The translations under genes were made by a program, and so were the position numbers. Positions 19,838 to 21,998 of a DNA stretch of 64,000 bases are shown here, piece after piece (within the stretch, counting starts at the first letter, position 1; each line of letters begins with the position of its first letter). The stretch comes from Thermotoga profunda AZM34c06. Its GTDB lineage: Bacteria; Thermotogota; Thermotogae; Thermotogales; DSM-5069. Below the pieces are notes generated by a model. The model was not told where the DNA came from and did no database searches. It was given only the letters and a program-made list of their open reading frames with translations. The stretch spans positions 1,197,413-1,261,412 of the forward strand of contig NZ_AP014510.1 in the NCBI RefSeq assembly GCF_000828675.1, given 5' to 3'.

Positions 19838-20791
19838 TTATAGGTTCACCCCCTTTAGTACCAGTTTTTGGAAGAGTTCTGGTTTTTGATCTTTGAGTTT
19901 TTTAAGTATCTCTTTGGATCTTTCTTGTTTTAGAATTGAGAGTATCACCGTCACGGAATTTTCATCCAATGAAAGAGAATCAATCATTTGCAATATCTGT
20001 TCATCTGTGAACTGGTTCAAAAATTCTATCGACAGATCTTTCACCACTTTTGCATCGATCAACGAAGATAATTCCTCTGTGATCTGTTTTTGCCTTTGTT
20101 CGAGTTGTTTTTGCCTTTCTTCCAAATCTCTGAGTATACCTTCAACCGATGCTATTTTGTTCATCACCTGAGCCGCTTTCGCCGGGTTTAGTCTTCCAAG
20201 TTCAGTCAGCACATCGGCTCTCAGGTCAGATGAAAGCCCCGTCAAAGCGGCAGCTATGGAATCGATTGTATAAGCATCGCTGGCAAGAACTGGAGCGATA
20301 GCCGCTGGATCTGCATTAGAGATTGTTTCACTGATCTTCTTTATATCTTCTGGATTCTGAAGTTTTTTTATAGCTGCTTCGACTTGAAGTAATCTGTCTT
20401 CCCAGTTTTTTCTCATCTCAATGACAATCTTTCTTTCTGCTTCAACGAGTTTCAATTGTTCCTCGGCTTGAGTCTTTGTCTTTTTTGCCTCTTCAAGTAT
20501 TTGCTGTGCTCTTTGTGAAGCCGCCTTTGAAATATCCTGAAAGTATTCTGCAGGAGAGAGTATTTGAAGTGGCTCGTACTTAACGTATTTGTTGACATAA
20601 GGAATTTTCGAAAGGAGAAAGGCAAAATAACTTTTCCAGTCCTCGATTGGGTTCATGGAAAGGCCTTTTATTCTATTGTATTCGAAAACAAAATATCCAT
20701 ATACAAGCACAGTAAAGCTTATAAAAATGGCTATGATAATTATTTTAAGAAAGGCCTTTAGTCTGCCCTTCTTTTTTTGCTTTTCTGCCAA
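19838..20791 (-). CDS. MotE/YlxF-like protein, first gene of the flagellar operon
   Basis: A 317-residue protein: a basic N-terminus, one membrane helix (about residues 14-32), a long coiled coil (about 90-140), a helical domain of repeated MgtE/FliG-like motifs (DPAAIAPVLAS, LRADVLTELGRLNPAKAAQVM), then a second helical domain. This matches MotE/YlxF-type proteins, thought to chaperone or position the stator. The TTG at 20791 lies seven bases after CAGGAGGG. It appears to head the operon, and the region just upstream is shared with a divergent ATPase gene. Confidence 0.78.
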   Translation of the reverse strand: MAEKQKKKGRLKAFLKIIIIAIFISFTVLVYGYFVFEYNRIKGLSMNPIEDWKSYFAFLLSKIPYVNKYVKYEPLQILSPAEYFQDISKAASQRAQQILEEAKKTKTQAEEQLKLVEAERKIVIEMRKNWEDRLLQVEAAIKKLQNPEDIKKISETISNADPAAIAPVLASDAYTIDSIAAALTGLSSDLRADVLTELGRLNPAKAAQVMNKIASVEGILRDLEERQKQLEQRQKQITEELSSLIDAKVVKDLSIEFLNQFTDEQILQMIDSLSLDENSVTVILSILKQERSKEILKKLKDQKPELFQKLVLKGVNL

Positions 20792-20824: not shown

Positions 20825-20898
20825 GAGTAAGTACTCCTAAAGGAAAGTAGTATAATATATTTACTCAAATGGGGTTGAGTTACTCAAGGGGGGTTGAG
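20825..20898. promoter_or_regulatory. Divergent control region with palindromic repeats and overlapping -10 elements
   Basis: Two near-identical 19-base units lie head to tail at 20861-20879 and 20880-20898. Each is an inverted repeat of ACTCAA and TTGAGT with six bases (ATGGGG or GGGGGG) between, and the second ends three bases before the ATG of the AAA ATPase. A further dyad, GAGTA-AG-TACTC, lies at 20825-20836. Between them, TATAAT (20851-20856) on the plus strand overlaps TATACT (20847-20852) on the minus strand. The sites look like operators, and the ligand is unknown. Confidence 0.6.
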
Positions 20899-20900
20899 TT

Positions 20901-21998
20901 ATGTACTTTTCATTGACACCGAAGAGTTCGAAAGAAAATTTGTACAATCGTCAGAAAGAGCTATCAAAACTGAATGAATATTCAAAGACAGCAAGAATCA
21001 TTCTCATAACTGGTATAAGAAGAGTAGGTAAAACATCTGTACTGAAGGTGTTTCTTGAACAGATGAAAAATCAAGGTCATTCGACAGTTTTTGTAGATTG
21101 CAGAATATATGAAAAAATAAACAAATTTGACAGGATTTCATTTGAAAAGAAGCTTGTGACTGAATTTGAGAATATCGTTCAAAAAAACAAAGGAATTTTC
21201 AAAATGCTTGCAAAGATAAATGTAGCTGGTGTTGAAATAAATTTTGAAAAACTTCAGAAAGATCGAAACTTACAGGACTATCTTGAGTTGATCAACAAAG
21301 CCTTGAAAAAGAAAGATTCAAAGTTGTTCATTGCCTTCGACGAAGCTCAAGTTTTGAGATTCTACGGCAGAGGAGGAAAGGACCTGTTGAATCTCATGGC
21401 ACATGTATACGACAATCTTGAAAACATAGTCGTTGTATTAACGGGTTCCGAATTAGGTGTATTACATGATTTTTTGAATTTAGAAGATGCAAATTCACCA
21501 CTCTTTGGAAGATATGTCCACAAGTTATTGCTTGAGAGATTTCAAAGGTCTGAATCGATTGAATTTCTCATCGAGGGTTTCAAGCAAATCGGTATAGAAC
21601 CATCGATCGAAAAGATCGAAAAAGCAGTTGATTTATTAGATGGCATAACTGGATATCTTTCTATATACGGTTATACAGTATATACAACTAAGGACTGGGA
21701 AAATGCTTTGCAGGAAACAGAAAAATCCGCCATAAAGATAGTCAAAAAAGAGCTCGAAGCTCTTCGATTGAGATCTGAAAATTATATATTTGTTCTGAAA
21801 GCCATTGGCTTTGGAGCAGAAACATTCAGCCAAGTGAAGAACTTTGTCGAAGCGCGTTTTGGTCCCATGACGGACCAGACACTCAGTAACAACCTCGCTT
21901 CACTTCAAAAAATGGGGTTTTTAGAAGTTAATTACAAAGATGGAAAGAAGATCTACAGCATAAACGATCCAATGATTCGCAGAGTGCTTTTTGATTAA
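20901..21998 (+). CDS. Archaeal-type AAA ATPase with C-terminal winged helix
   Basis: A 365-residue STAND/AAA-type ATPase. It starts with NLYNRQKELSKL (the family's typical F-RxxEL lead), Walker A TGIRRVGKTSVLK, Walker B KLFIAFDEAQVL, a sensor-like VVVLTGSELG, and ends in a winged-helix-like domain (TFSQVKNFVEARFG ... LASLQKMGFLEV). This is the family often annotated 'ATPase predominantly from Archaea', which is scattered among thermophiles and of unknown role. It may bind the palindromic repeats just upstream. It shares a TTAA with the convergent flavoprotein gene, each reading its stop from it. Confidence 0.82.
   Translation: MYFSLTPKSSKENLYNRQKELSKLNEYSKTARIILITGIRRVGKTSVLKVFLEQMKNQGHSTVFVDCRIYEKINKFDRISFEKKLVTEFENIVQKNKGIFKMLAKINVAGVEINFEKLQKDRNLQDYLELINKALKKKDSKLFIAFDEAQVLRFYGRGGKDLLNLMAHVYDNLENIVVVLTGSELGVLHDFLNLEDANSPLFGRYVHKLLLERFQRSESIEFLIEGFKQIGIEPSIEKIEKAVDLLDGITGYLSIYGYTVYTTKDWENALQETEKSAIKIVKKELEALRLRSENYIFVLKAIGFGAETFSQVKNFVEARFGPMTDQTLSNNLASLQKMGFLEVNYKDGKKIYSINDPMIRRVLFD

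Follow-up and report, generated by a model that had tools for sequence, protein, structure and literature searches.

Tandem palindromes at the start of an AAA+ ATPase gene of Thermotoga profunda: a probable self-operator with counterparts in bacteria and archaea

The CI and Cro proteins of lambda are autorepressors that act through tandem operators, and classical regulators of this type are expected to bind palindromes over their own promoters. The same expectation applies to the gene described here, which encodes an AAA+ ATPase and is preceded by two tandem palindromes. However, it departs from the lambda type in that an AAA+ ATPase takes the part of the putative regulator, the ribosome site lies inside the operator, and one layout serves both bacterial and archaeal promoters. 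The ATPase is the same kind of protein as PABY2304 of Pyrococcus abyssi (2QEN) and SSO1545 of Sulfolobus solfataricus (2FNA). To our knowledge, these two structures stand without an assigned function, the SSO1545 structure paper reportedly dating from 2009, and we know of no function for the ATPase family as a whole, although structures have been solved. Further likenesses are to the Orc1/Cdc6 proteins, origin-binding ATPases that use dyad DNA sites and that share an AAA+ module and then a winged helix with the present protein at an identity of about 14-16%, and to the STAND ATPases (NLRs, CED-4, Apaf-1 and MalT), which share with it an NB-ARC-like fold. By contrast with the Orc1/Cdc6 proteins, the sites at the ATPase gene are fixed to promoter and start codon and not to a known origin. 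Unlike the STAND ATPases, the protein has no added sensor or effector domain, and the winged helix ends the 365-residue chain.

A literature search, whose coverage left subscription journals mostly outside, returned no description of these repeats or of a function for the family (sources include PMC5760070, PMC4599002). Archaeal ATPases in algae are the subject of two further reports (PMC6629376, PMC6652019).

The full length of the ATPase consists of an AAA+ fold followed by a winged helix, matching 2QEN and 2FNA in both sequence and structure. Pfam family PF01637 (ATPase_2) covers residues 15-253 at 93.9 bits, compared with a gathering threshold of 33.2, and the MCM_C family lies over the winged helix at 30.7 bits (cut-off 27). 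An AlphaFold2 model (mean pLDDT 91.8, pTM 0.88) presents this winged helix as two helices and two wing strands, with the recognition helix at residues 325-337. The first-pass annotation, made from the sequence alone, had assigned a winged helix to the C terminus, and the MCM_C match and the model both bear this out. Among the matches listed, the closest known structure is that of 2QEN (Z 39.2, rmsd 2.2, 339 aligned; full-length sequence match, E 4.4e-60), followed by 2FNA (Z 36.2, rmsd 2.6, 337 aligned; full-length match, E 2.4e-40). Further matches are Aeropyrum ORC2 (1w5t; Z 22.0, rmsd 3.9, 322 aligned), the plant NLR RPP1 (Z 20.7, rmsd 3.2, 286 aligned), CED-4 (Z 19.1, rmsd 3.8, 290 aligned) and Cdc6/Orc1 in complex with origin DNA (2qby; Z 18.4, rmsd 6.4, 316 aligned). 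The P-loop residues G43 and K44, together with D147 and E148, are invariant in alignments of the relatives, of which alignment A2 was made without L101. No Orc/Cdc6 family appears among the Pfam matches of the ATPase, and domain searches returned no nuclease, recombinase or transposase domain, the matches being to ATPase and winged-helix families or else weak and partial. Membership of a defence system was considered and rejected, given that the PADLOC matches were all weak, the best (1.8e-10) being to part of the PDC-S01 model and another, to PDC-S27, reaching 2.2e-8.

In the window, which is the whole 64,000-nucleotide stretch of T. profunda DNA analysed here, two 18-bp dyads of the form ACTCAA-N6-TTGAGT lie between a TATAAT hexamer and the ATG at 20901. 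They recur with a period of 19, a single T acting as spacer, and the second stops one base short of the start codon, so that the tandem 19-base units are present just as they had been described from the sequence. Coordinates are collected in Table 1. A simple promoter scan reported no -35/-10 pair at the TATAAT hexamer; transcription of the ATPase gene would start near 20863, within unit 1. Two further elements had been proposed, a divergent -10 overlapping that of the ATPase gene and, on the far side of both, a GAGTA/TACTC dyad. The congener whose ATPase gene is broken does not conserve the divergent -10, and the dyad, present in the window, reads as a palindrome in neither of the two congeners examined (GAGCGAGTACTC and GAGCGATTACTC).

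Table 1. Features of the ATPase locus, in positions of the window.
Feature	Position	Strand	Basis or remark
Operator unit 1, ACTCAA-ATGGGG-TTGAGT	20863..20880	+	Sequence; kept in G002, decayed in the G001 pseudogene
Operator unit 2, ACTCAA-GGGGGG-TTGAGT	20882..20899	+	Adjoins start codon; sequence and congener comparison
TATAAT, probable -10 of the ATPase promoter	20851..20856	+	Sequence; TATAAT-like hexamers in bacterial relatives
GGGGGG core within unit 2, a probable Shine-Dalgarno site	20888..20893	+	7 nt before ATG
GAGTA-AG-TACTC dyad, probably outside the operator system	20825..20836		Palindrome not conserved
365-aa ATPase_2 (PF01637) protein ending in a winged helix	20901..21998	+	Pfam; structure model
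Recognition helix DQTLSNNLASLQK, codons 325-337	21873..21911	+	AlphaFold2 model; half-site covariation
Flagellar gene, divergent from the ATPase gene	19838-20791	minus	Found in three congeners

With a limit of E 0.001, 60 of 103 Thermotogota genomes contain relatives of the ATPase; with a limit of E 1e-60, so do 49 of 61 Thermococcaceae genomes, the latter often holding several paralogues. The 78 loci in a species collection include members of the Thermotogota, MAGs of the Caldisericum type and several archaeal groups. Relatives were counted when the profile match was nearly complete and at least 110 nt of upstream sequence was available. A tandem dyad with a score of at least 16 was observed upstream of 175 of the 218 distinct relatives, bacterial and archaeal together, and in 0 of 654 dinucleotide shuffles, leaving 43 relatives with no clear tandem dyad by this score; because many relatives are close kin, such counts are not independent. 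For a first set scored at 15 or above, 65 of 80 upstream regions carried a tandem dyad, against 1 of 480 dinucleotide shuffles; downstream of the gene, 4 of 74 regions did so. The period of 19 recurs in 151 of the 160 relatives with a score of 17 or higher. Absence of the repeats upstream of the relatives had been named at the outset as a finding that would speak against a self-binding regulator; the upstream dyads are present. The solved protein 2QEN is itself a near-identical match of one relative, L235 (191 of 193 compared residues), and an operator of this type accompanies L235.

Consensus half-sites of seven letters, read from the dyad axis outwards, were compiled for the 140 relatives whose dyads are even in length and repeat with period 19. 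The compilation contains 22 different half-sites, which differ between clades, and all 140 relatives have A at position 5. Covariation with the recognition helix was then tabulated over 68 representatives under 80% identity. Aspartate or glutamate at residue 325 is accompanied by G at half-site position 6 (41/41), and asparagine, lysine or serine at the same residue by C (27/27). At residue 327, arginine is found with C at position 1 in all 36 cases, lysine with G in all 7 and asparagine with T in all 6, one further C at position 1 being paired with glutamine. An acidic side chain facing C, or an asparagine, lysine or arginine facing G, agrees with established recognition chemistry. On a tree built without residues 305-345, the residue 325 class and the position 6 base each switch three times and all three independent switch pairs agree, although with only three such switches the sign test falls short of significance (p 0.25). 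The Caldisericum relative L044 carries NQTLSN with TTGACT amid proteins that carry DQTLSN with TTGAGT.

Mean corrected mutual information was highest at helix positions 324-333 (1.38, compared with 0.59-0.90 elsewhere), the distant residues 64, 255 and 164 also being high, with kinship as a confounding factor. Given that the top of this list mixes helix and distant residues, weight was placed on the residue-base tables and the tree. The 35 of 175 relatives (score of at least 16) that lie outside the half-site table have odd-length dyads or a period other than 19; 29 of them were callable by their junction pattern, of which 28 obey the residue 325 rule, and 6 were uncallable. L128 was called against the rule, probably because of a wrong register.

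The position of the dyads is as regular as their form. Among 38 bacterial relatives, 35 have a TATAAT-like hexamer directly adjoining one or the other end of the operator, compared with 8.45 for shuffled flanks. In archaea, BRE/TATA-like bases stand directly before the operator, an A-rich stretch being followed by CCTTTATA, which runs into the operator's first A, and a strict TATA-like pattern is found there in 69 of 137 archaeal relatives (6.3 in shuffled sequence). The operator overlaps the gene's own promoter or start in the relatives, as is expected for an autogenous repressor. One operator layout adjoins the -10 in bacteria and the TATA box in archaea, which places a single regulatory unit in two transcription systems. 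In 121 relatives the operator ends no more than 12 nt from the start codon, and here the core of the last unit resembles a Shine-Dalgarno sequence in 121 of 121, compared with 53 of 121 for the core of the first unit. By contrast, where the operator is distal, the last core is Shine-Dalgarno-like in 2 of 19 cases, and all 19 have a separate site ahead of the start codon. This difference between proximal and distal operators supports the earlier suggestion that the GGGGGG core might double as the ribosome site, a suggestion in agreement with the family.

In light of these data, we consider it likely that the tandem 19-bp palindromes of T. profunda serve as the ATPase gene's own operator, bound through the winged helix of its product in autogenous repression. 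The proposal of a self-binding regulator in the first-pass annotation is strongly supported by the conservation of the repeats and by the covariation of helix and half-site. The following model is proposed. Each half-site would be read by the first residues of the recognition helix (around 324-329), and the two dyads would be occupied, probably by two dimers, from just behind the -10 to the start codon. Protein bound in this way would block the promoter and, given that the ribosome site sits within the operator, might also hide that site. The nucleotide state of the AAA+ module probably sets the DNA-binding or oligomeric state. The sequences show the presence, conservation, position and covariation of the dyads; binding, the repressive sign of control and the nucleotide switch are steps that we infer. 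An AAA+ ATPase that did nothing but repress itself would be an odd economy, which counts against this reading; the protein would need another task. A self-operator with a readable relation of residue to base would supply a defined DNA ligand for each member of the family; the relation predicts changes of specificity by single residues and gives an assay for nucleotide dependence.

The distribution of sites elsewhere bears on whether the ATPase would have other targets. The genome search for further ACTCAA-N6-TTGAGT sites suggested in the first-pass annotation returned no exact site beyond the pair in the whole 2.19-Mb genome, and at least 8 sites with one mismatch among the matches listed. A wider regulon in T. 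profunda was rejected as a candidate, given that no further exact site was found and that the closest degenerate pair (G000:C1:205671 and 205691) falls within a gene, presumably one for a penicillin-binding protein, and is therefore attributed to chance. Over the 103 Thermotogota genomes, ACTCAA-N6-TTGAGT has 21 exact sites, 10 of them at an ATPase gene or its fragments, 1 at a truncated ATPase start and 10 elsewhere, and the reversed-pattern control gave 38 by hand count. The corresponding figures at ATPase genes are 14 of 18 exact sites for ACTATCA-N4-TGATAGT (control 2) and 17 of 21 for ACTTCCG-N4-CGGAAGT (control 3). For GTATCG-N4-CGATAC in the 61 Thermococcaceae genomes, 39 of 50 sites are at a listed ATPase gene and 4 are at remnants (control 12). 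The exact sites lie mostly at ATPase genes, in support of the self-operator reading, and off-target sites are few. On that reading the ATPase has no other obvious DNA target and exerts no flagellar control.

Operator pairs with no intact gene nevertheless persist in some genomes, which counts against the self-operator reading. Seven gene-less GTATCG-N4-CGATAC sites, from five genomes, occupy one chromosomal place where relatives hold the ATPase gene, and on that account they are interpreted as gene loss with the operator kept and not as insertion. Gene-less operators at one conserved Thermococcaceae place were observed in L345, L346, L347, L349 and L350, and the ORF beside such operators is one that we take to resemble arginyl-tRNA synthetase. 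In G003, which belongs to the same genus as T. profunda, a TTGAGT-type operator pair with no ATPase gene lies beside a CRISPR-like array (L131, 5001-5037), and no relative of the ATPase was found in that genome. In G055, a solo operator with about 130 bp of upstream flank (L157, 1480-1651) is 79% identical to L068 630-801, and the similarity ends at the start codon of an intact ATPase.

Among the 137 relatives with at least 100 nt of downstream sequence, 28 also carry a dyad of the upstream type no more than 250 nt behind the gene. Clade-swapped half-sites, used as the control in place of reversed arms, which performed poorly (9 versus 12), gave a mean of 0.9. By class, downstream copies were observed for GGTAAGT in 13 of 18 relatives, for TGCAAGT in 6 of 15 and for CGTAAGT in 5 of 21, and in the mainly bacterial classes for CGGAAGT in 2 of 11 and TGATAGT in 2 of 6; none was seen in the CGATACT class (0/22) or behind the T. 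profunda ATPase gene in the window. The stop codon touches or falls within the downstream dyads in 22 of the 28. A further tandem operator with matching specificity was noted directly behind the ATPase gene in L066, L079, L136 and L261-L290. The downstream copy might permit end-to-end looping, block transcription from a neighbour, be the remnant of a lost tandem copy or mark the end of a mobile unit.

A more general possibility is that such loci form a widespread one-gene class, op-ORF-op, in which the protein would recognise its paired operator at each end, with start and stop codons in the operators and with protein and site co-diversified into at least 22 kinds of half-site, exchanged between hyperthermophilic bacteria and archaea, leaving solo operators when lost, and either selfish or regulatory, without a known transposase; this we regard as unlikely. 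That the operator brackets a one-gene mobile or selfish unit, in which the ATPase would know its own site at both ends and the op-ORF-op segment would move or be copied, is decidedly improbable. The bracketing dyads and their involvement of the stop codon are consistent with such a unit, as are the interleaving of bacterial and archaeal clades in the tree and the existence of Thermococcaceae loci that are alike from the TATA box on (92-96% identity) with unrelated upstream flanks. However, the downstream copy is missing in the window and in most half-site classes, the protein has no nuclease or recombinase domain, many Thermococcaceae copies share one conserved place, and the gene-less operators there look like gene loss. 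A plasmid or phage gene, a candidate that was rejected, and a mobile unit alike find no match in 72,556 plasmid and 50,697 phage records, one partial match occurring in viral contigs. No clean transposition event was found among the Thermococcaceae loci compared. In L334 versus L335 (also L332/L334 and L333/L339) the flanks are unrelated up to the ATPase TATA box, at about 2954, and flank breaks at this box in Thermococcaceae look as if rearrangements break at the promoter.

It is very improbable that the ATPase is an Orc1/Cdc6-like initiator, with the repeats forming a small origin of replication or representing iterons from an ancient integrated plasmid. The fold does resemble archaeal ORC2 (1w5t) and Cdc6/Orc1 on DNA (2qby), and the G-rich dyads adjoin the gene. 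Against this, the NLR and CED-4 folds fit about equally well, the sites keep to core promoter and start codon, which an origin would not need, and several paralogues occur per Thermococcaceae genome.

The self-operator reading confines control to the ATPase gene, whereas the first-pass annotation had the regulator bind the intergenic region and control the divergent flagellar operon as well. We attach almost no likelihood to this extension. The divergent flagellar gene is found in three congeners, and as a neighbour it is limited to that one genus (loci L009, L010 and L047); gene neighbours in general recur just among close relatives, aside from common families such as ABC ATPases. Moreover, in G001 (L047/L148) the ATPase is a pseudogene with three stops; decay has also reached its -10 and first repeat, whereas the flagellar sequence alongside can still be aligned. 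Equally hard to credit is a role for the dyads as leader RNA hairpins (an attenuator or RNA thermometer) and not as DNA sites: in the window and other proximal cases the transcript would include the dyads, with the ribosome site inside them, but in the distal bacterial clade (CGGAAGT) the TATAAT lies behind the operator, which would therefore be outside the transcript, copies also occur behind the gene, and the half-site letters track a DNA-binding helix.
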